This document shows positions 6,406-60,056 of a stretch of DNA of 64,000 nt, one piece after another. How positions within the stretch are numbered: the first letter of the stretch is position 1; the number at the start of each line of letters is the position of its first letter. Both the position numbers and the translations under genes were made by a program. This DNA is from Ignisphaera sp. (GTDB lineage: Archaea > Thermoproteota > Thermoprotei_A > Sulfolobales > Ignisphaeraceae), in the NCBI GenBank assembly GCA_038831005.1, contig JAWBKZ010000001.1, forward strand, positions 186,001 through 250,000, in the 5' to 3' direction. The notes beneath the pieces are model-generated. The model worked only from the letters and a program-made list of their open reading frames with translations, searched no databases and was not told the origin of the DNA.

Positions 6406-6483
<78 letters not shown>

Positions 6484-48038: not shown

Positions 48039-48527
48039 ATGAGCAAACTATATAGGTGTAGAACTCTGAAGTATTGGTATGGTGTTAGTGAGTATGTTGC
48101 TACACTAACTATAGCTATAATCACATTAGCTGCTGGTGTAGGTATCTTTGCCTATAGTTACTACATCATTGACAGTTATTATAGCAGACTTGTAGCAGTT
48201 GCTGAAGGTACTAGAGGTAGAGGTGGAGATATAGCTATTCTCGCATCTCTTATAGATAGCTCTGGAAAGATAGTTGTAATTGGTTCCACAGGCTCTAAAC
48301 CTGTAATGCTCTACGCTATACATATAAACGATACCCTCTATACACAATGTACGGTACATATCGATGGATACAACAATACATACACACTAGATGGATCTAG
48401 CTATATACAGATACCGTACTACATAACATTCAAATCGATATGCATTACACCCTCAACAACTTCTCGAGCAATAATCAAGATTGTTTATGAAGGAGGTGAG
48501 AAAACAGTCTATGTTACCAAGATATAG
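48039..48527 (+). CDS. type IV pilin-like secreted protein
   Basis: A 162-residue protein. The N-terminus KYWYGVSEYVATLTIAIITLAAGVGIF has the layout of archaeal class III signal peptides: a short basic leader, Gly before the cut site, Glu five or fewer residues later and a hydrophobic stretch, as in archaeal pilins. The rest is beta-rich (IVVIGSTGSKPVMLYAIHIN...). It would be processed by a PibD/FlaK-type peptidase and built into a filament or surface array. It overlaps the adhesin-like gene downstream by 17 bases. No pilus ATPase is in the window. Confidence 0.68.
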   Translation: MSKLYRCRTLKYWYGVSEYVATLTIAIITLAAGVGIFAYSYYIIDSYYSRLVAVAEGTRGRGGDIAILASLIDSSGKIVVIGSTGSKPVMLYAIHINDTLYTQCTVHIDGYNNTYTLDGSSYIQIPYYITFKSICITPSTTSRAIIKIVYEGGEKTVYVTKI

Positions 48528-51159
48528 GAGAGGTATATCAGCTATAATAGGTGCAGCAGTACTGCTGACGATAATGATAATGTTTACAGCATTCTATATA
48601 ACCATTCTGCAGAAGTTCGTAGAAGTAGCTAACTACACTATAAACTCTATATCTTCTGCAGAAGAATCGAAAAAAGTTCTAGAGACACTCAATGCTTTAT
48701 GGGACTACAATGGAACACATGTAACTATATTCATAGAGAATAGAGCTTCTAGAGCAGTATTGGTAACAGCAATAGCTATGGTATTCAGCGACAGTAGCTA
48801 TACAACCATATCGAGAGTAAACAAAACACTAGCATCAGCAGTAGTGCAGATACTGTACATAGGTAACGAAAATGACACAGCACGTATATTAGATCTAGTT
48901 CTACCACTAGCTTTACCACCAGCTACAGAAACAATGATAACTATAAAGATGCAGAAAGAACCGATAACTGTGTCGATAGCTGTAGAAGCTTCACCAATAA
49001 AGACAGTAATAGTGTCAAGAAGAGTCAATGAAGAACAGAAAATCCATATAATTGAGTTACCGCTACAAACCTATGGAGAATGGATAGGGACAACAACATG
49101 GTTAGGTAATGTATCAATACCTGTGGAGAGAAAAGGGATAACAAACAATACATATCCAATCGTATCTAATGCAACACAACAACCACGAGTATTGATAAAC
49201 CTTGTGAGCAGAGGAGCTGTAACGTATACAGATTTCGAGACATATCCTCTAACAGGATGGGATAGCAGAGGTGGTATCTGGAGCTCCGTAGAGAATGTAG
49301 TAGGAGCAAAAGGAGGAGTGCTACAGGGAAACGATAACAACCAAGGTATTGGTGCTGCCTCACAATACTATTACACAACTAGTTTATCTGGATATACACG
49401 TCTATGGATTGTAGCAAAAACTAGATGGGTAAGTGGAACAGGATGGTATGGAGTAGCGATGATAAACAATGCGAGAAATAGACTCTATACTATAGAGATA
49501 AATACAGCAGGAAGAATCGAGATACGAAGTTTTAATGTAGAATCAAGAAATGGATGGTATACCCTGGCTAGTGCTACTATTCCAGGGTACTCTACAACAT
49601 CATGGTACATTATAGTTGTAAATTATACAGTTACTACAACAGCTGTAAACATAATGGCAAGACTCTACAATTCACAAGGAACACTCATTACTGCGGTATC
49701 AGCATCAACTAGTAGGAGAAGATTTACACTAGCATATATAGGTGTAGATGTAGATAACGTGATAGCATATTTCGATGATTTTCTGATTACGACTAGAGAT
49801 CCTAGGTACATAGTGTTCCAGAACGTTATGGTTAATTATCGTATAGAGATTTGGGATGATTTAAACAATCTAGTGAGAAGTGTTGTAGCAACATCAAGTA
49901 CAGTTAATGTAGATGTTGTTACAGATGTTGTTGTTGGTAGAGGTAGTAATGGGAAGATATATGTGTATGACTCTAGAGGCAACCAGATTGCAAGTTATAT
50001 TGCTTTCGATGCTATTATTGGTGGTGATATATATCAACTCCAATATATCTACGGCAATTATACAGCTGAATTTAGCGATGAAATAATTGTGAATAATCTT
50101 GTTAAACCATTGAATGCTAGACTATACTTCTGCATCCATACAAACACTACTGTGAATATATCTATAGTGTTTAACAATCGTGAACTTATACATAGTAGTA
50201 GTGGAGTATACTTCTGTGATAACTATGTGCTACCCATAGATTTTGTGGGTAGGAGTAATAATGTGGTAGTGTATGCTTCATCTAGAGATCCATTTAATCT
50301 CACTATAGAGTATCTGGATCTCTATATCTATGGCTTTTATACAGATATATTGTTTGAGGCACTCGTTATAGCTATTGGTGGTAGTAGTAGGGTTGCATTC
50401 TGTAGAATTGACGATATATTGATTAAGAAGAGTATCAATGTATGCTATCTATTTGATATTATTGGCAGTACGTTTAATGGAGAGACAGCGATAACCTATG
50501 ATAGTGATAGTCATGTCTTATACATAGTCAATAGATCTGGTATATATCTATGGAACTTCATATCTACTGATAAAGTGACAGAGAGCTGTAAAGCTACTGG
50601 CATAGGTGTAAGAATAGAGTTAGTTGAAGATGGCTTCATTGTTCTACCAGGCAGTGGAAACAACACAATATGTGTATATAATCCAACTGATGAGTATTTA
50701 CAACCTCTTCCCAACGATTTTGAACTCTATATGTATACATCTTCAGCTGTATACAGAAATTCAGTATACTTTACATGTATAGATAAGAATGGTGCTGTAT
50801 GGCTACTTAGATATGATGTAGATACCTGGAGATTAGATAAGCTAAAGCCTATAGCGATTAACACAATAATCGGTTTAGCTATAGATAGTTCTAGCAATAG
50901 GGTTTATATACCTATAGGAGGTTTTTGGAGAGACGCTCTCAATAATCATCAATCCTATATGTCTATCTATATATATAGTGTGGCTAGCAACAGAATTGTG
51001 CATACAGCTATACCGATTGATACTACTACGTATGTCTCAGCATCATGTTGTGATAGAGCTGAAATCTATGGAAACTATATGTTGATAGTTGAAAGAGGTA
51101 GTCTACTAGCTATAGATATCTCTAGAATTGATTATAGGAAAAATGTAGCTATATCTTGA
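48511..51159 (+). CDS. giant pilin-like adhesin with lectin-like and propeller regions
   Basis: An 882-residue protein starting MLPRYRRGISAIIGAAVLL, an archaellin/pilin-type class III signal peptide with RRG before the cut and a long hydrophobic helix. A beta-rich ectodomain follows. Residues about 240-425 resemble a LamG/concanavalin-like jelly roll (YTDFETYPLTGWDS... YFDDFLIT). Residues from about 650 on have the strand repeats HVLYIVNRSGIYLWNF and NRVYIPIGG of a beta-propeller. The start at 48511 is favoured over an earlier TTG because GGAGGTGAG lies ten bases upstream. It is likely a minor, adhesive pilus subunit. Confidence 0.7.
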   Translation: MLPRYRRGISAIIGAAVLLTIMIMFTAFYITILQKFVEVANYTINSISSAEESKKVLETLNALWDYNGTHVTIFIENRASRAVLVTAIAMVFSDSSYTTISRVNKTLASAVVQILYIGNENDTARILDLVLPLALPPATETMITIKMQKEPITVSIAVEASPIKTVIVSRRVNEEQKIHIIELPLQTYGEWIGTTTWLGNVSIPVERKGITNNTYPIVSNATQQPRVLINLVSRGAVTYTDFETYPLTGWDSRGGIWSSVENVVGAKGGVLQGNDNNQGIGAASQYYYTTSLSGYTRLWIVAKTRWVSGTGWYGVAMINNARNRLYTIEINTAGRIEIRSFNVESRNGWYTLASATIPGYSTTSWYIIVVNYTVTTTAVNIMARLYNSQGTLITAVSASTSRRRFTLAYIGVDVDNVIAYFDDFLITTRDPRYIVFQNVMVNYRIEIWDDLNNLVRSVVATSSTVNVDVVTDVVVGRGSNGKIYVYDSRGNQIASYIAFDAIIGGDIYQLQYIYGNYTAEFSDEIIVNNLVKPLNARLYFCIHTNTTVNISIVFNNRELIHSSSGVYFCDNYVLPIDFVGRSNNVVVYASSRDPFNLTIEYLDLYIYGFYTDILFEALVIAIGGSSRVAFCRIDDILIKKSINVCYLFDIIGSTFNGETAITYDSDSHVLYIVNRSGIYLWNFISTDKVTESCKATGIGVRIELVEDGFIVLPGSGNNTICVYNPTDEYLQPLPNDFELYMYTSSAVYRNSVYFTCIDKNGAVWLLRYDVDTWRLDKLKPIAINTIIGLAIDSSSNRVYIPIGGFWRDALNNHQSYMSIYIYSVASNRIVHTAIPIDTTTYVSASCCDRAEIYGNYMLIVERGSLLAIDISRIDYRKNVAIS

Positions 51160-51613: not shown

Positions 51614-51673
51614 TCAATATTAGGTAAGGTTTTTAATTCATTATAGATACACTCTATACTGTGTGGATATATT

Positions 51674-52024
51674 ATGTCGATAATAGTGAGCCGCTTCAGC
51701 ATTATCTTCAGCAGTATTCTGTTGATACTTTTAGGAGTGGATATTATAGCTATTTACTATGGGTTTATTTCTCTACCACTACTTATAGCGCTAAACTTTA
51801 TTGCTCTAGGTCTTCTGATCATATTTAGAGGAAGTAGAGAACAGGTAGCTGAGGAAAGGAAATTCTATTTCTTATGGGGATTCATTATGTTTGTTATCTC
51901 TATATCTATATCTTTAGGTAGCTTAATGGGGTTGGTGATTGGTGTAGCTACATTCTTTATAGGTTTAGGTATAGCTATTCTCTATATAGTTTCGGGCTCT
52001 TCTCTACAGATTCTACAACCATAA
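51674..52024 (+). CDS. small four-helix membrane protein
   Basis: A 116-residue protein with about four membrane helices, the middle loop RGSREQVAEERK being the only polar part. No family recognised; it is consistent with a small regulator or accessory of the membrane proteins encoded just downstream. TTTTTAAT near 51630 may be its TATA box. Confidence 0.55.
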   Translation: MSIIVSRFSIIFSSILLILLGVDIIAIYYGFISLPLLIALNFIALGLLIIFRGSREQVAEERKFYFLWGFIMFVISISISLGSLMGLVIGVATFFIGLGIAILYIVSGSSLQILQP

Positions 52025-52080
52025 ATACATATATATAGACCTAGAGATAATGTCTATAGATCTTCACCTAGGTGTTTATC

Positions 52081-52578
52081 ATGGTTAGAAGAGAAGCGAT
52101 ATTAGAGAAGCTCTTAAATGTTCTACCGGGATTTCGCGGATATAGAAAGAAGGAACATTTGAGAGAAGATGATAGACTTGTTAGAGAGTATCTAGTCAGG
52201 ATACTAAGTGAAGCTATCAGAGATTTAGAAGAAGCTATAGCCAATCTAGTGGAATATGATTTCAAAGCAGCAGAAATATACGATACTGTTCTAAGGGATC
52301 TCAGAACTATTGCAGACAAAATTAGGTGGGCTGAACATGGATATGCACCTCATTTCAATATAGTTAAGATTCAGGAAGAAGATCTAAGCAAGATTAGAGA
52401 AATAGATGGGGCACTTGTAGATGATGTCGAGAATATAAGGAATTATATAGCTCAGCTGAAGAAGGATACAATCTATAGGAATCCTGTTAGAGATAGAGCT
52501 CCAGAGCTCATGAAGCTTCTAGATGATTTAAGGGTTCAGCTTATCGAGAGAGAAAAATTGGTTAGAGGATGGATGTAA
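52081..52578 (+). CDS. helical protein upstream of the SPFH operon
   Basis: A 165-residue, almost wholly alpha-helical, charged protein (LVREYLVRILSEAIRDLEEAIANLVEYDFKAAEIYDTVLRDLRTIADKI). No family recognised. The length and helical hairpin pattern are reminiscent in outline of coiled-coil membrane-stress proteins, but I see no PspA signature. The start follows AGGTG by six bases; the frame opens nine bases earlier at a GTG. Its close position to the SPFH gene suggests a shared role. Confidence 0.6.
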   Translation: MVRREAILEKLLNVLPGFRGYRKKEHLREDDRLVREYLVRILSEAIRDLEEAIANLVEYDFKAAEIYDTVLRDLRTIADKIRWAEHGYAPHFNIVKIQEEDLSKIREIDGALVDDVENIRNYIAQLKKDTIYRNPVRDRAPELMKLLDDLRVQLIEREKLVRGWM

Positions 52579-52594
52579 AGTTGTGTGATTAAGA

Positions 52595-52616
52595 TTTATA
52601 ACATAGATAATGTTAT
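52595..52616 (+). promoter_or_regulatory. TATA box overlapped by a palindrome, SPFH operon
   Basis: TTTATAAC at 52595-52602 is a TATA box 32-39 bases before the TTG start of the SPFH gene. ATAACAT (52598-52604) and ATGTTAT (52610-52616) make a perfect 7-bp inverted repeat with a five-base spacer overlapping it. A repressor here would block TBP binding, so the operon may be induced under specific conditions. Confidence 0.5.
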
Positions 52617-52633
52617 TTTCTTAGGGTGTAAAG

Positions 52634-53683
52634 TTGGTTATAAATAAGATCGGAAAAGGATTGGGTAAGGTCGCTAGTAAAGCTAGTGGTTTTCAGCCCA
52701 AATTTATTGAATGGAAGGATGCTACATCAAATGATATAGTTTGGAGATATCCAGAAGAAGTAATTCCTTGGGGTTCTACTGTTGTTGTTAAAGAGTGGGA
52801 GAGAGTCATATTCTATAGGGATGGAAAGGTCTACGGAATGCTTGGACCAGGTAGACACGTTCTCGATACACAAAACGTTCCGTTCCTACAAGGCCTTGTT
52901 GAAGGCTTCTATGGAGAAAGTATATTCAGGGCAATCGTTATATATGTCAATATCAACAGGATGCAGGGTAAATTCGGTGGAAAAAGCCAGACAGTAGAGC
53001 TCATACCCGTGAGCTTTCACGGTGTATACTACTATAGAGTAGCTGATCCCGTTCTATTTGTAAACAAAGTTGTTGGACCTGATGAAAGGTACACTCGAGA
53101 AGAATTAGATGAATACATTAGGAGCTATTTCCTCACAAAACTAATGTCATTCATAAGTCAATCAAGCATAAGAGACTTGTACATGAAGGCTGAAGAGGCT
53201 GGTAAAAGAGCTCTAATGATCCTCAGAAAAGCATTTGATGAACTTGGCCTTATGCTAGAGGATATGCAATTCGAAGGAATAGATGTACCTCCAGAATATA
53301 GAGAGAGGATGTTCTGGATACTACAGGGAACCTCAGCAGCTTATCTTGTTCAACAAGAAACTGCTAGAAAGTTTGCTGAAGCAATAGAGAAGACACAAGC
53401 AGGTGGAGCAGCTATAGGTGCAGGTGTAGTTGCTATCCCATGGGCTCTACAGCCACCGCCACCACAAGCACAACAACCTTCTGTAGCTGCTGTAGGTGGT
53501 GTTGCTACAGCTCCTCAACAACAGGCATACGTAGCTAGATGTCCACACTGTGGACAAGGACCTCTACCTTCGGGTGCAAGGTTCTGTCCTTTCTGTGGTA
53601 AACAAATTAAATGGTGTCCTAATGGCCATGTAGCTTCTGCAGAAGCAAACTTCTGTGTCATATGTGGTAGTAAACTTGGTTAG
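52634..53683 (+). CDS. SPFH/band-7 protein with C-terminal zinc ribbons
   Basis: A 349-residue protein. Residues about 30-245 resemble the YdjI-type SPFH domain: DIVWRYPEEVIPWGSTVVVKEWERVIFYRDGKVYGMLGPGRHVLDTQNVP opens it. A Gly/Ala/Pro/Gln-rich linker follows, and residues 303-345 hold two zinc ribbons (C303, C306, C318, C321; C328, H332, C341, C344). SPFH proteins form rings at membranes. In Bacillus the similarly built YdjI works with PspA and zinc-ribbon membrane partners. It starts with TTG, five bases after GGGTG. Confidence 0.8.
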   Translation: MVINKIGKGLGKVASKASGFQPKFIEWKDATSNDIVWRYPEEVIPWGSTVVVKEWERVIFYRDGKVYGMLGPGRHVLDTQNVPFLQGLVEGFYGESIFRAIVIYVNINRMQGKFGGKSQTVELIPVSFHGVYYYRVADPVLFVNKVVGPDERYTREELDEYIRSYFLTKLMSFISQSSIRDLYMKAEEAGKRALMILRKAFDELGLMLEDMQFEGIDVPPEYRERMFWILQGTSAAYLVQQETARKFAEAIEKTQAGGAAIGAGVVAIPWALQPPPPQAQQPSVAAVGGVATAPQQQAYVARCPHCGQGPLPSGARFCPFCGKQIKWCPNGHVASAEANFCVICGSKLG

Positions 53684-53692
53684 GTGATTTAG

Positions 53693-54841
53693 TTGTCTAC
53701 TAGTGAAGTAGAATTTAGATGCAGAAATTGTGGAGGACCTTTAGAAGTTTCTCCAGAAACAATAGCTATAGTTTGTAGCTATTGTGGGTTCTTGAACTGG
53801 ATTAGAGAAGATCTTAAAGAAGAAGTTCTAGTGGTTAAGCCTTTAAAAGATAAGGATGTGTTGGATAGGTTAAGGGGCTTCGCATCTAGAGAGAGACTTG
53901 GAGAAATATTTTCGCCAAGCAATCTATCGAGAACTACTGTTGTTCTAGTACCTATCTATTTCGTTGATGTATCTGCTGGAGCTGAGTATAGCGGAACAGT
54001 TGCTGTAGATATAAGAAAGTGTAGGAGTGTAGGTAATCAAACAAGATGTTGGGTAGAGACCCGTAGAGTTCATGTTAGAGGTGTATATGGTCCTGCAAAA
54101 GATGTTGTACCAGTTCCAGGTAGAAGAGGAAGTAATGTTCTCTCCGTAAAAGCTCTGGCATATAGATACATGATGAATAGAGTTGATGCAGTACCTCTAG
54201 CTAATGCTGAACTAGATAAAAGTATATGGAGGAATGTCCTATCTATTGAAGTTGATAGAAAAATTGCTCTAGATATAGCTATAGATAGTCATCTAGATGT
54301 TTTGAGGAAGACTATAGAAGACGTTATGAGGAAAGAAGCTGAAAGAAAAGTATCAGGAGGAAGTATAATTAGATCGAGAATAATATGGAAGAAAATAACT
54401 CCTAGAAATGTGAAGGCAGCATCATCACCACCTATACTTCTACCTATGCACATCTTGATGTACAGATATAGAGGTGAGGTTTATAGAGCTGTTGTATGTG
54501 GATGGAATGGAGATGTAATAGTCTTAGAAAGACCTATGAAGAAAATTGATAGAATTATATGGAGCATTGCTGCATCATTAAGTTCAGGACTATGTGGAGG
54601 ATTAGCTATACCTATGATTATAGCTGGTGATGAGATAGGTTTGGGTATAGGTTTAATACTTATTATAGCTGGAGGATATGCATCGTGGTACTGTATGAAG
54701 AAAGTTGTTTCACCAGTTAAATCTAGCTTAATTGGTGTAAATCTTAAGGAGTTGAAGAAGTATTCAGAATCTTCTAGTGCTAATGAAGTTCACAAGATTA
54801 TAAAGTTTGTAGATTCAATGCTATCTACACCTAGATTCTAG
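53693..54841 (+). CDS. zinc-ribbon membrane protein, SPFH operon
   Basis: A 382-residue protein. An N-terminal zinc ribbon (C10, C13, C28, C31) is followed by a long alpha/beta region (residues 45-285) and a pair of membrane helices (about 288-335), then a short charged tail. It begins with TTG only nine bases after the SPFH stop, behind TAGGTG. I do not recognise a named family, but the zinc-ribbon plus membrane plan recalls the YdjG-type partners of SPFH proteins. It probably faces the cytoplasm through the ribbon. Confidence 0.68.
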   Translation: MSTSEVEFRCRNCGGPLEVSPETIAIVCSYCGFLNWIREDLKEEVLVVKPLKDKDVLDRLRGFASRERLGEIFSPSNLSRTTVVLVPIYFVDVSAGAEYSGTVAVDIRKCRSVGNQTRCWVETRRVHVRGVYGPAKDVVPVPGRRGSNVLSVKALAYRYMMNRVDAVPLANAELDKSIWRNVLSIEVDRKIALDIAIDSHLDVLRKTIEDVMRKEAERKVSGGSIIRSRIIWKKITPRNVKAASSPPILLPMHILMYRYRGEVYRAVVCGWNGDVIVLERPMKKIDRIIWSIAASLSSGLCGGLAIPMIIAGDEIGLGIGLILIIAGGYASWYCMKKVVSPVKSSLIGVNLKELKKYSESSSANEVHKIIKFVDSMLSTPRF

Positions 54842-54865
54842 ACAGATAGATTAAGGTGTTGGTAA

Positions 54866-55828
54866 ATGGTAGATGTTAAAAGAATTGTATGTTCATTCTG
54901 TAAAGCTGAGTATACAGTACCTACAACAATTGTATATGCCACATGTCCATATTGTGGAACTACATTTAGATTAGATAAACCTGATGCTACAGTAGAGCAC
55001 TACATGTTTTCAGCATTATTAGATAAAAATAGTGCCTACAGATACTTAAAAGAGTTTGCATTGATGCAGATCGGTATAGCAGAAGATTTTGAAGTTAATG
55101 CCTCTTTTGAATCATCGTATCAGTACTTGATACCGCTATATCTATATGAAATCAATGTAAAGACTCTATGCAGTAAAGGAAAAGAGAGTATCGATAAAGA
55201 TAAAGTAGAGATCGATATTCATGGAGGAGAAGAGACGGCCTACATAGTTACTCCAGCTACCAAGAACATACCTATCGCTATACCTTCAAACTATAGTTTT
55301 CCAGCCAGGGGACGTAGATACTTTAAACCAACAGTTCTAAAGGAAGGTACATATGTTCAGCCAACACTAGACCCTAACCAGATGTTTGAATACGTTAAAC
55401 AACCATATCTACATAAAGCTATTGAAGAAGCTAGAATATCCTGTGGCGAAAGTTATGAGGTTAACGATAACTCTAGGTATGTGGGTATAGCTCATTACCC
55501 CTTCTGGTTAATAAACTATAGGTATAGAGACAGAAGATATAAATCAATAGTAGATGCAGCGGATGGAACTGTTCTGTATCTGGAGTACCCTATGAGTTAC
55601 GGAAAGAGACTGCAGGGCTTGATCGGGGGACTAGGTGTATCTGGGATAGCTATAGCCATAGCCTCAGTAATCTCGTTAATAGCTTTAAGTGCACCTATAC
55701 CGGGTCTCATTGGAGGATTAATGACATCTTTACCAGGCTTAGGTGTAGCTCTACAGAAGTTCCTGAGATCAGTAGGAATATATAGGTATAAAGTGAGAGA
55801 AGAGCTAGTGTTTGCACCAGTAAGATGA
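54866..55828 (+). CDS. second zinc-ribbon membrane protein, SPFH operon
   Basis: A 320-residue protein with the same plan as its neighbour: a zinc ribbon (C9, C12, C27, C30), a beta-rich region (residues about 40-240) with YPFWLINYRYRD, and two Gly-rich membrane helices (about 245-295). It may be a distant paralogue. It starts 24 bases after the preceding gene and ends the operon. A pseudogene of an ABC exporter follows. Confidence 0.65.
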   Translation: MVDVKRIVCSFCKAEYTVPTTIVYATCPYCGTTFRLDKPDATVEHYMFSALLDKNSAYRYLKEFALMQIGIAEDFEVNASFESSYQYLIPLYLYEINVKTLCSKGKESIDKDKVEIDIHGGEETAYIVTPATKNIPIAIPSNYSFPARGRRYFKPTVLKEGTYVQPTLDPNQMFEYVKQPYLHKAIEEARISCGESYEVNDNSRYVGIAHYPFWLINYRYRDRRYKSIVDAADGTVLYLEYPMSYGKRLQGLIGGLGVSGIAIAIASVISLIALSAPIPGLIGGLMTSLPGLGVALQKFLRSVGIYRYKVREELVFAPVR

Positions 55829-55895: not shown

Positions 55896-56310
55896 ATGAC
55901 TAAACAACTAGTTTTACTAATAACAAATACTATACCTCTTATCTTCTTGGTAGTTAAGTACATAGGTACGAAAATGTGGCTTGCTCATAAGAATGTTAGA
56001 ATAGGTATAGATGATTTTCACATCTATTATTGAAGAAACGCTTCAATCAGCTTTAGCATCTTTAGAGAGAATATATGAGATTCTTATCGAAAAAAAGATT
56101 GAAGATGATGATGGTATAGAGATTAATAGATTTAGGAGAGAAACTTATTGCTAGTAGAACGGGAATCATAATAGCCCATAGACTTGCAACGGCATGAGAG
56201 TACAACAGGGTTATAGTTATAGAGGAAGGTGCAATTGAAGAGAGTGGAAGATTTGATGGACTTCTAAAGAGAAGAGAGATATTATATAGACTCGGTAAAT
56301 CTATATAGAG
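55896..56310 (+). pseudogene. relic of an ABC exporter (MdlB type)
   Basis: Three plus-strand pieces in changing frames. First MTKQLVLLITNTIPLIFLVVK, a membrane segment. After a frameshift, IIEETLQSALASLERIYEIL, which matches the end of the exporter membrane domain (usual S..RI.E.L). Then TGIIIAHRLATA, a TGA, and RVIVIEEGAIEESGRFDGLL to TAG 56310, the switch-His region and end of the ATPase domain. Walker A and B and much of the gene are deleted. Confidence 0.7.
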
Positions 56311-56521: not shown

Positions 56522-57190
56522 ATGATGGCTAGCTACTTTAGGTCTATATATACCGTTAAATTAGTGTATTTGGTGTATAGTGTATGTTTAGCTGTTTTAA
56601 CAGGTATTCTTGCACAAGCAGTTTTTTATATAGGTCCCGTTCCATATACTATGCAGAATATTGGAATAATTCTATCAGGTTTATTGTTACCGCCTAGATA
56701 TGCCTTGTTTTCACAACTGCTCTATCTATTACTTATAGCTTTAGGATTGCCTCTAGGAGCAGGATTTAGAGGAGGTCTACATGTAATTTTAGGATATACT
56801 GGTGGATATCTAGCAGGGTTCCCTATATCAGCGACATTGATGAGTATTCTATGCAGAAGATATTTAGCGAAAAAGGGGTTAGATCTAGGTGGAATCGGTT
56901 TAAGGGAATACATCGTTATATTGTTGTTTTCTGCTATAGCTATAGTTCCTACATATGTTCTCGGATTTCTAGTATTTACACACTATGCTTTACGGAACGA
57001 AAGGCTATTGATGTGGGCTACAGGTGTTGCACAAGGAGTTGGCATCTCTAGTAATGTTCTAGCTATCCTCTTAGTAGCTAGTATAGCTGTATTTGTTCCA
57101 CAGGACATATTCATAGATCATGTGATAGCTATAAGTGTGGCTAAGATGATGATTCAATTTCTAAAGAGTAGAGGTATAGAGATTGAGTAA
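56522..57190 (+). CDS. bioY: biotin transporter BioY (ECF S-component)
   Basis: A 222-residue, six-helix membrane protein with the BioY signature: VPYTMQNIGIILSGLLLPPRYALFSQLLYLLLIALGLPLGAGFRGGL...LGYTGGYLAGFPISA. It binds biotin and, with an energising ECF module, imports it. The ATG at 56522 is followed directly by another (ATGATG). The next gene overlaps it by eight bases and encodes the ATPases. Confidence 0.94.
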   Translation: MMASYFRSIYTVKLVYLVYSVCLAVLTGILAQAVFYIGPVPYTMQNIGIILSGLLLPPRYALFSQLLYLLLIALGLPLGAGFRGGLHVILGYTGGYLAGFPISATLMSILCRRYLAKKGLDLGGIGLREYIVILLFSAIAIVPTYVLGFLVFTHYALRNERLLMWATGVAQGVGISSNVLAILLVASIAVFVPQDIFIDHVIAISVAKMMIQFLKSRGIEIE

Positions 57191-58457
57191 AGTTGTGTCT
57201 ATAGAGAATCTCTCTGTAGAGATCAGAGGGAGAGAAATACTTAGGGGGATTTCTCTAGAGATTAATGAAGGTGAATTAGTATGTGTTGCTGGTTCTGTAG
57301 GTTCAGGTAAATCCACATTTCTAAAAGTGTTGACAGGAATTATACCAGAGCTTTATAGAGGATTCAGAGTTTGTGGTAATATATCTATTTTTGGTTTAAA
57401 ACCTGTAGAGGTACTGCATAAAGGTTTAGTAGCTTATGTTCCTCAAGATGTATATAGTTTCTTTATAGGTTCTACCCCTAGAGAAGAGTTAGCTATACTA
57501 GGAATAGATAGTTCTTGCTGTAATGATATAGATCTCGATAATGATATAGATCATCTATCTGATGGTCAGCTCTATAGATTTCTCTTATATTCAGCTCTAT
57601 TTAGTGGTGCCAAGTTTATAGCAATCGATGAACCTTCATCACATATAGATTGGTGGAGTATAGGAGAAGTATTCAGAGGTATAGAGAGATTTGTAAATGA
57701 TGAAAAGGCTATAGTAGTTGTTGCTGATCATAAGCTCGATACTCTGAAGAAATTCTGTAGCAAGATCATAGATCTAGATGGGTCGAGAGGATCTTACTGT
57801 AGTTTTCCTTCGATAATCACTCTTCAGAGATCTAAGGTTATTGTAGAGATAGAGAATGTATGGGTATCGTATAGTGGAAAATCTATACTTAGAGACGTAT
57901 CTCTATCTATTAATCTAGGTGAAGCTATAGCTATCGTTGGGAGAAATGGTTCTGGGAAAACAACTCTTCTAAAAGTGTTGTCAAAGATAATCAAACCGGG
58001 TAGAGGTAGAGTAAGCATCGAGAGAGATACAAGAATATTTCTAGTTCCTCAGAACCCTATCTACTGGTTTCCTAATGGATCTGTAAAAAATGTTCTAGAG
58101 TCTTTAGCTAAGAGATACAGATCTAGAGAATCTATCAATAACGTTCTAGAGATGTTTAATCTAATCGATAAACAGGATAGAGACGTATATTCCCTTAGTA
58201 TTGGTGAAACAAGAATGCTTTCACTTGCATTAGCCTATGTATCTAAAGCTAACTTGATTATCATAGATGAACCTACCTTGGGAATGGACTGTAGATCCAT
58301 GAAAACATTTGTGAACATCATCAATACTCTTCTAGAGAATGGCTCCTCAATCGTTATAGCAACTCATGACCTCGATTTTGCAAGACTATTTGATTCTGTG
58401 TATCTACTAGAAGAAGGAAGGCTCATAGATATTGAGTCACATGATAAAGACGGTTGA
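57183..58457 (+). CDS. ecfA: ECF transporter ATPase, two fused domains
   Basis: A 424-residue fusion of two ABC ATPase domains. The first has Walker A GSVGSGKST (residues 37-45), LSDGQ and a VAIDEPSS-type Walker B (IAIDEPSSH). The second has GRNGSGKTT near 252, LSIGE and IIIDEPTLGMD with a switch His in ATHD. In most ECF systems these are separate EcfA1 and EcfA2 proteins. The first domain's signature is weaker. It starts with TTG at 57183, overlapping bioY, and is followed six bases later by ecfT. Confidence 0.9.
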   Translation: MSKVVSIENLSVEIRGREILRGISLEINEGELVCVAGSVGSGKSTFLKVLTGIIPELYRGFRVCGNISIFGLKPVEVLHKGLVAYVPQDVYSFFIGSTPREELAILGIDSSCCNDIDLDNDIDHLSDGQLYRFLLYSALFSGAKFIAIDEPSSHIDWWSIGEVFRGIERFVNDEKAIVVVADHKLDTLKKFCSKIIDLDGSRGSYCSFPSIITLQRSKVIVEIENVWVSYSGKSILRDVSLSINLGEAIAIVGRNGSGKTTLLKVLSKIIKPGRGRVSIERDTRIFLVPQNPIYWFPNGSVKNVLESLAKRYRSRESINNVLEMFNLIDKQDRDVYSLSIGETRMLSLALAYVSKANLIIIDEPTLGMDCRSMKTFVNIINTLLENGSSIVIATHDLDFARLFDSVYLLEEGRLIDIESHDKDG

Positions 58458-58463
58458 TATAGT

Positions 58464-59057
58464 TTGTTCAATTTGTTTAAAAATCCAGGTATAGTTCTTC
58501 TAACTACAATATCTATATCTATAGCGGTTATGTTTGTAGATGATCTCTATATAGCTTTAATGATTTTCTTGATCGTGTTATCAACATCTCTGATACTTGA
58601 TATGAGGATAGCTATAGCTTTAGCTAGATACATCATACCTATGATCACAATCTATACAGCTATAGCATGGATTATCCAATTTATTGTTACTGGTGAAATA
58701 GATTTGGTGATAGGTTTCATAAATCTTTTGAGGTTTAGCACTATAGCTGCTATATCTCTAACTATGTTGAATTCAATAGATATACCAAATCTAATAATAT
58801 TTTTCAACAGATTATCGCCTAGATTAGGTATAGCTCTAGCTCTATCGATAAAAATGATGAAGAGTTTCTCAAAGACATGGATAGATATACATACTGTCTA
58901 CAAAACTAATCTCAATATCGATAGCTATATAGATAAAATTAAGCTCTACATTATCTCCGTAAGAGTATTCGTATTTATCGTTATGTATGTAGCTCTTCAG
59001 AGCATTGAAGCTCTATTGACTAGATGCAGAATTTTTAAAGCTACTAGATCTACATAA
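58464..59057 (+). CDS. ecfT: ECF transporter transmembrane protein EcfT
   Basis: A 197-residue protein with about five membrane helices and a cytoplasmic, charged loop, as in EcfT. The coupling-helix region has the Arg motif SKTWIDIHTVYK and ALLTRCRIFKA at the C-terminus, where EcfT has its Ala-Arg-Gly-like segments; these are poorly conserved here and the protein is shorter than usual. The assignment rests on position between ecfA and birA as much as on sequence. The start is TTG. Confidence 0.75.
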   Translation: MFNLFKNPGIVLLTTISISIAVMFVDDLYIALMIFLIVLSTSLILDMRIAIALARYIIPMITIYTAIAWIIQFIVTGEIDLVIGFINLLRFSTIAAISLTMLNSIDIPNLIIFFNRLSPRLGIALALSIKMMKSFSKTWIDIHTVYKTNLNIDSYIDKIKLYIISVRVFVFIVMYVALQSIEALLTRCRIFKATRST

Positions 59058-59084
59058 TGTAGAGTATTCCTCTTAGGTGTATAT

Positions 59085-60056
59085 ATGGATATAGAAGCAG
59101 AATTGCTCAAGATCTTAGTGATGAACAAGGACTATGTTTCTGGAACTAAGCTAGCACAAGCTTTAGGTGTATCAAGAGCCACAATCAATAGAACTATAAA
59201 GAAGTTGATATTAAGAGGCTTCATAATCGATATACATCCAAAACTAGGCTATAGACTTGTAGATCTAGATAATCTATCTCAAATCAATAGATATGTAGAT
59301 TACCTAGATACACAAATGAAGTTCTACACGCACTATGTAGAGATATGCGATTCTACACAAGATATAGCATCTACATTTGCAAAAGAAGGTGCACCAGAAG
59401 GAACAGTTGTTGTAGCCGAAGAACTGAGACGTGGTAGAGGTAGAATGGGTAGACAGTGGGTAGCGTCTAGAGGAGGTCTATGGTTCTCCATAGTTCTTAG
59501 ACCTAAAACAATTAAACATATGCATCTACTTAGTCTAGCTATAGCCACAGCTATTGCAGAATCCATAAGCAATGTTCTAGGGATAGAGGCTAGAGTTAAA
59601 TGGCCTAACGATGTTCTTGTTAACGAAAAAAAGGTGGCTGGAATACTAATCGAGGGTAGTGTTGAAGCCGATATTATTCACTTCATAATTGTGGGTATAG
59701 GAGTAAATGTGAATAACAATCTTCCACAAGAACTACTCGATATAGCAATATCGCTAAAAGATGTTATGGGAACCGAGGTTCCAAGAATACCTCTGTTCCT
59801 CAACATACTCAAGAGTATAGACGATATCTACAATCTGTTTAACCAGAACCGTAGTTCAGAGGCTGTAAAGAGATGGAGACAATATTCATCAACATTAAAT
59901 AAGTATGTAAGGGTTATTACAATAGATGGGGAATTTGAAGGAGTAGCAGAAGATATAGAAGATGATGGTGCTTTGAGGATCAGAACAACAAAAGGTAATA
60001 GAGTTAAAGTTTATGCAGGTGATGTAATTCATCTACGTGAACAGAAACAGTTATAG
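59085..60056 (+). CDS. birA: bifunctional biotin ligase / biotin operon repressor
   Basis: A 323-residue protein. Residues 1-65 are a winged helix-turn-helix (GTKLAQALGVSRATINRTIKKL). The ligase domain has the biotinyl-AMP loop GRGRMGRQW at residues 117-125, the lysine region KWPNDVLV near 170-177 and GIGVNVN. A C-terminal SH3-like domain follows. It attaches biotin to carboxylases and probably represses this operon. AGGTG lies about eight bases before the ATG. Confidence 0.93.
   Translation: MDIEAELLKILVMNKDYVSGTKLAQALGVSRATINRTIKKLILRGFIIDIHPKLGYRLVDLDNLSQINRYVDYLDTQMKFYTHYVEICDSTQDIASTFAKEGAPEGTVVVAEELRRGRGRMGRQWVASRGGLWFSIVLRPKTIKHMHLLSLAIATAIAESISNVLGIEARVKWPNDVLVNEKKVAGILIEGSVEADIIHFIIVGIGVNVNNNLPQELLDIAISLKDVMGTEVPRIPLFLNILKSIDDIYNLFNQNRSSEAVKRWRQYSSTLNKYVRVITIDGEFEGVAEDIEDDGALRIRTTKGNRVKVYAGDVIHLREQKQL

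Follow-up and report, generated by a model that had tools for sequence, protein, structure and literature searches.

A cluster of five genes, P2 to P6, on one strand of a 64,000-nucleotide stretch (the window) of an Ignisphaera genome (1.70 Mb, 99.5% complete) is fairly likely to encode a membrane SPFH scaffold of the YdjI/YdjG type. In this model P4 is the SPFH protein, P5 and P6 are its zinc-ribbon membrane proteins, and P3, a small helical protein, would be its dedicated soluble partner, with the complex organising or protecting the membrane. The model is based on homology for P4 to P6 and on gene order for P3. Because the P3 gene adjoins the SPFH gene in many archaea and some bacteria, P3 is probably the real working partner of the SPFH scaffold.

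P4 matches the Pfam families Band_7_1 (1.1e-22) and Band_7 (3.9e-18) with 81.1 and 66.5 bits, against cut-offs of 24 and 23.6. Its C-terminus carries two zinc ribbons (Zn_ribbon_3, 4.8e-8; DZR, 6e-6), as the first-pass annotation of this DNA had described, and no membrane helix is found. The best-scoring family, Band_7_1, is the class of the Enterococcus SPFH from an SPFH-YdjG-type-TPM operon. P4 aligns with this protein in hhalign at 1.2e-23 over about 296 columns, ribbons included, and with the two stomatin-like SPFHs of the host, encoded elsewhere in the genome, at only 4e-8 and 5e-7. On these profile matches P4 is a YdjI-class SPFH, that is, a soluble-type Band_7_1 protein with a double zinc ribbon. 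The stomatin/NfeD operons (SPFH1 of Hinderhofer et al., PMC2636767) share the SPFH fold, but P4 lacks the N-terminal membrane helix and there is no NfeD alongside. In relatives of P4 (L145, L057, L165) the Band_7_1 domain is constant while the double ribbon, HTH_17, GYF_2 and SHOCT interchange in the tail, and one Chloroflexi SPFH has a helix-turn-helix (HTH) at its C-terminal end. This variation suggests that the tail is an exchangeable adaptor on a constant ring. An exchange of adaptor-like modules could also serve protein quality control, in which an SPFH cage with its ribbon proteins would act as a membrane chaperone or protease adaptor, as HflK/C does with FtsH, and P3 would deliver clients; a role of band-7 domains in chaperone-like assembly is discussed in PMC11237479. 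However, among neighbours that are only partly annotated we recognised no gene for a protease or chaperone that accompanies the cluster, and P4 belongs to the soluble YdjI class, neither to HflK/C nor to the NfeD-linked stomatin class. We regard this role as unlikely.

P5 and P6 each begin with a CxxC...CxxC ribbon (CRNC/CSYC in P5, CSFC/CPYC in P6). In P6 the predicted C-terminal hairpin is formed by two long helices (residues 245-274 and 277-300); a comparable pair of hydrophobic segments is present in P5. The two proteins align with each other in hhalign at 2.4e-31 and, judged by sequence, are paralogues. Each matches YdjG-type or "TFIIB-type zinc ribbon" proteins adjoining SPFH genes in Comamonas, Vibrio, Tsukamurella and Enterococcus (E 1e-9 to 2e-16). 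P6 contains the motif HYPxWxxxYxYxxxxYxxxxDGxxGxV, and the motif shared at the C-terminus is PxWxxxYxYxxxxYxxxxxGxxGxV. As controls, the genuine ribbons with a shuffled remainder matched over only 34 columns (2.7e-7) and a fully shuffled sequence gave about 0.5, while the remainder without ribbons still aligned with P6 at 1.1e-8 over 216 columns. From these alignments we take P5 and P6 to be homologous to YdjG-type proteins. A plasmid search with a provisional sequence of B. subtilis YdjG matched the same proteins and serves as a lead only.

The first-pass annotation had likened the cluster to the YdjG, YdjH and YdjI plan of Bacillus. The YdjI-class SPFH and the YdjG-type proteins stand, but YdjH does not, since both ribbon proteins are paralogues of the YdjG type. 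YdjH carries a TPM domain (PMC11237479). This domain (PF04536) is found in 0 of 147 genomes of the order, in a search whose control was positive in 8 of 14 known genomes, and profile comparison of P5 and P6 with the Enterococcus TPM protein gives no match; P5 or P6 as YdjH is thus ruled out. The ribbons might instead bind DNA, making the cluster a membrane-tethered transcription regulator. The ribbon of YdjG carries the annotation TF_Zn_Ribbon, DNA binding has been proposed for it (PMC9239133), and the HTH of the Chloroflexi SPFH would fit. Yet conservation in P6 spans the central domain as well as its C-terminal motif, and the palindrome AACAT-N5-ATGTT before P4, considered as a conserved operator, is not kept in the congener loci. 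In addition, short zinc ribbons often bind protein. A regulator of this kind is very improbable.

The evidence for P3 comes from gene order. A P4 search over the 147 genomes of the order, with about 40 loci then read, showed that P2-P3-P4-P5-P6 or subsets of it recur in the genus, in other families of the order and beyond the order, a recurrence that chance does not explain, in agreement with the gene order conserved across related genomes that had been looked for at the outset. A P3 profile scan of one genome per species gave 488 P3 loci, of which the best-scoring 80 were kept, so that the sample leans to near relatives. These 80 span Thermococcus, Thermofilales and other Thermoproteota, Bathyarchaeia, Brockarchaeota, Nitrososphaeria, Jordarchaeia (Asgard) and Methanomicrobia, with Chloroflexi represented by one clear contig (L145). 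P3 lies directly 5' of an SPFH gene on the same strand in 77 of these 80 loci: 73 were counted by script, and four more (L101, L104, L130, L161) were added where overlapping open frames defeated the gap rule of the script. As for the remaining three, the SPFH gene is about 2.4 kb off on the opposite strand in one, and none is present in the available sequence in two. The P3 family occurs in 204 of 398 Thermoproteota genomes and in 39 of 251 Chloroflexota genomes, where SPFH is directly downstream in 17 of the 30 loci read. The system is no local peculiarity of crenarchaea (Desulfurococcales): Thermococcus, Bathyarchaeia and Chloroflexota have the core pair as well, and so does an Asgard genome.

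The set around the pair differs among lineages. The order is four-helix membrane protein-P3-SPFH-P5-P6 in Ignisphaera, P5-P6-P3-SPFH in Thermococcus, and one YdjG-type protein-P3-SPFH-four-helix membrane protein in Bathyarchaeia. Another family of the order (L055-L066, e.g. L057:6450-10863) has P3-SPFH followed by two Cys-pair proteins and a four-helix membrane protein; one Cys-pair protein, of about 325 amino acids (aa), contains two CxxC pairs, the other, of about 490 aa, starts with a ribbon, and the SPFH tail is SHOCT, not ribbons. Thus, the P3-SPFH pair is the constant core; the YdjG-type proteins and the small membrane protein are variable accessories, and the SPFH tail also changes. As a separate observation, a gene for a 460-aa protein resembling flavin adenine dinucleotide oxidoreductases regularly precedes the ribbon protein-P3-SPFH-four-helix set at six Bathyarchaeia loci (L114, L125, L131, L136, L155, L161), and a class I lysyl-tRNA-synthetase-like gene follows it; these identities were assigned by eye on L125.

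P3 has no Pfam family and no credible relative in the PDB. Sequence matches of the cluster to solved structures were confined to short zinc ribbons, coiled coils and isolated weak hits. The AlphaFold model (predicted local distance difference test score 83) has helices at residues 18-57, 61-82, 99-131 and 137-161 (40, 22, 33 and 25 residues), and P3 is predicted to be a compact, closed and soluble four-helix bundle. P3 carries the N-terminal motif PG[FY]xGY[KR]xKE..RE.D, and P16, G17, G20, Y21, E25, R28, E29, D31, R35, G87, Y88, D109 and R157 are invariant in 54 sequences. The NCBIfam model NF047596 (LIMLP_15305, from Leptospira) aligns with P3 over nearly its full length at 5.6e-7, but at 29.6 bits the archaeal protein is far below the curated cut-off of 210. 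This model matches 17 of 23 members of the P3 family, with a best value of 4.9e-11, and the Chloroflexi P3 at 6e-17. In hhalign, P3 against three PspAs and the host CdvB gave probabilities of 0.2-12%, compared with 99% for members of the P3 family, though the power of this comparison is limited because a single-sequence PspA against PspA reaches only 38%. The top Foldseek hits are miscellaneous four-helix bundles, with no PspA or Vipp1 in the top 50, and the predicted fold lacks the long PspA hairpin. Neither profile nor predicted fold therefore supports P3 as a relative of PspA or CdvB, and the earlier proposal that the helical 165-residue protein could take the PspA role loses its footing in this respect. 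Taken together, the missing Pfam and PDB relatives, the NF047596 score and the Foldseek and hhalign results show that P3 is a distinct family. A plasmid search by tblastn with P3-type queries gave no matches. An apparent P3-SPFH fusion at L055 (a single 504-aa open reading frame) was rejected, since the +1 frame holds the genuine end of P3, "...ERYKSKLAERDNIITSTGVRQ*", which indicates a frameshift or assembly indel and no Rosetta-stone fusion. The apparent frameshifts in P3 at L055:8646-10160 and in P5 at L045:8852-10073 (two open reading frames) could be draft assembly errors.

A PspA is not recognisable in the host genome (PF04012, none at E 0.001), as noted in the first reading of the sequence. 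Within the order, no match passes the cut-off in any of 147 genomes, in a search whose control was positive in 9 of 14 known genomes, and the matches below the cut-off are mostly open reading frames much longer than PspA. The 27 archaeal genomes chosen for P3 also lack PspA above the cut-off, while the Chloroflexi P3 genome has a PspA on another contig. Among the 398 Thermoproteota genomes, PspA above the cut-off occurs in 8, P3 in 204 and both in 1, where about 4 would be expected (hypergeometric P 0.03, ignoring relatedness). This pattern, together with the PspA-like slot of P3, would agree with P3 as a functional substitute for PspA or ESCRT-III that is recruited by SPFH, polymerises on the membrane and repairs leaks. 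However, the 8 PspA genomes are confined to two families, and P3 resembles neither PspA nor CdvB in the comparisons above. Its N-terminal helix (with low model confidence over residues 1-20) is also only weakly amphipathic, with a helical moment of 0.39 compared with 0.31 for shuffled sequence. Such a substitute is improbable in our estimate. Away from the cluster, a CdvB-like protein of the host gives a single weak Snf7 match.

Comparison with known systems helps to place the cluster. The soluble YdjI of Bacillus relies on YdjG/H to be located at the membrane, and PspA in turn requires YdjI to be brought there (PMC8581546). With B. subtilis pspA-ydjGHI (PMC8581546, PMC11237479) the cluster shares a YdjI-class SPFH with C-terminal ribbons, a YdjG-type protein with zinc ribbon and membrane helix, and a tight arrangement with a soluble helical protein near the head. 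It differs in having neither PspA nor the TPM-domain YdjH, in having two YdjG-type paralogues that each carry a single N-terminal ribbon instead of two, and in having an unrelated four-helix protein beside SPFH as well as an extra small four-helix membrane protein. Since PspA and TPM, the two defining parts, were searched for and are absent, the cluster is not a member of the PspA-YdjGHI system. By analogy it may well work like the YdjG/YdjI half of the Bacillus system. The bacterial pairs of SPFH and "TFIIB-type zinc ribbon" genes (Comamonas, Paracoccus, Vibrio, Tsukamurella, Enterococcus) are similar in that SPFH is followed by a YdjG-type gene with no PspA annotated alongside. In contrast to our cluster, no P3 gene was recognised beside them, the YdjG-type proteins read carry an additional N-terminal ribbon, and the Enterococcus locus has an extra TPM protein. 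A survey of archaeal ESCRT describes one methanogen-linked ESCRT system that has SPFH-ribbon proteins (PMC10936438). Our literature search found no description of the P3-SPFH pair.

We suggest the following scheme, which for anchoring, oligomerisation and the holding of P3 is drawn from the Bacillus YdjI, YdjG/H and PspA proteins. The C-terminal hairpin would hold P5 and P6 in the membrane while their zinc-ribbon domains face the cytoplasm. The two would recruit the soluble P4, which may oligomerise at the membrane as a ring or cage. P3 would be an adaptor, lid or effector held by P4, a contact suggested by gene order, and would fill the operon slot of the Bacillus PspA without being a PspA. 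The resulting complex would organise or protect the membrane. In favour of this scheme, P3 and SPFH are correlated in their pairwise identities (r 0.80 over 115 loci), a figure that takes no account of species relatedness. Several results weigh against it. Genes of the P5/P6 type are near P3-SPFH in only 50 of the 80 loci, so the anchor is not universal, and 13 of the 30 Chloroflexota P3 genes lack an SPFH gene within 1.5 kb. Furthermore, Foldseek found no solved relative of P6 or of P3 (for P3, nothing at E 0.001). Among the Chloroflexota P3 genes that lack SPFH, those read adjoin a xanthine-dehydrogenase-like gene, probably unrelated.

The five open reading frames are located where the first-pass annotation had put them, all on the plus strand (Table 1). 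The gaps are 9 bp between P4 and P5, 24 bp between P5 and P6, about 56 bp between P2 and P3 and about 55 bp between P3 and P4. P2 gave nothing significant in Pfam; its homologues lie upstream of P3 in congeners and in another family, and we propose that it is an accessory membrane protein. The box TTTTTAAT is likely to be the operon promoter, as predicted from its sequence. A regulated promoter of its own, also claimed earlier, is at best half supported: there is the A/T box before P2, and a TTTATTA/CTTATTA-like box recurs before the SPFH gene in aligned upstream regions of congener loci, but the palindrome is unconserved. PADLOC gave no match, and the reading as an anti-phage system was dropped.

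Table 1. Genes of the cluster and promoter-like elements (positions in the window)
Feature	Position	Strand	Description	Basis
TATA-like A/T-rich box TTTTTAAT	51630..51637	+	37-44 bp before P2	sequence only
P2	51674-52024	+	116 aa; four hydrophobic segments, predicted as four membrane helices	open reading frame
P3	52081-52578	+	165 aa from ATG; 168 aa from alternative GTG 52072	open reading frame; AlphaFold, all-helical
TATA-like box TTTATAA	52595..52601	+	within P3-P4 gap	alignment of upstream regions
P4 (SPFH)	52634-53683	+	TTG start	open reading frame; Pfam
P5	53693-54841	+	YdjG-type; N-terminal zinc ribbon, central domain, C-terminal membrane helix pair	
P6	54866-55828	+	YdjG-type; N-terminal zinc ribbon, beta-rich domain, C-terminal membrane hairpin	

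The neighbouring genes are listed here as side observations. Just upstream (48039-51159) is a pair of secreted or surface-type proteins of 162 and 892 aa with N-terminal hydrophobic segments, the larger one with a weak Kelch-like match. At 56141-56308 (+) there is a remnant of the C-terminus of an ATP-binding cassette (ABC) exporter ATPase (TGIIIAHRLATA*EYNRVIVIEEGAIEESGRF...), interrupted in frame by a stop codon; this decayed gene separates the cluster from the biotin genes. These follow at 56522-60056 (+) as BioY, a double ABC ATPase, a small membrane protein and BirA, and look like a complete biotin uptake operon of the energy-coupling factor type with its ligase. The sole match in a structural RNA search of the window is a tRNA at 6406-6480.

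More than half of the archaeal genomes surveyed have no recognisable phage-shock protein (PMC9239133). It is possible, though we hold this tentatively, that P3-SPFH is an ancient, unrecognised and PspA-free membrane-maintenance pair of archaea and some bacteria, a phage-shock counterpart with a non-homologous four-helix effector in archaea that lack Psp proteins. About half of the sampled Thermoproteota combine the same kind of SPFH that carries PspA in Bacillus with an unstudied partner, and P3 is a candidate for the partner of YdjI-class SPFH proteins where PspA is absent. For the question of how archaea without Psp proteins guard their membranes, the P3-SPFH pair thus provides genes with which a membrane-protection complex may be tested.

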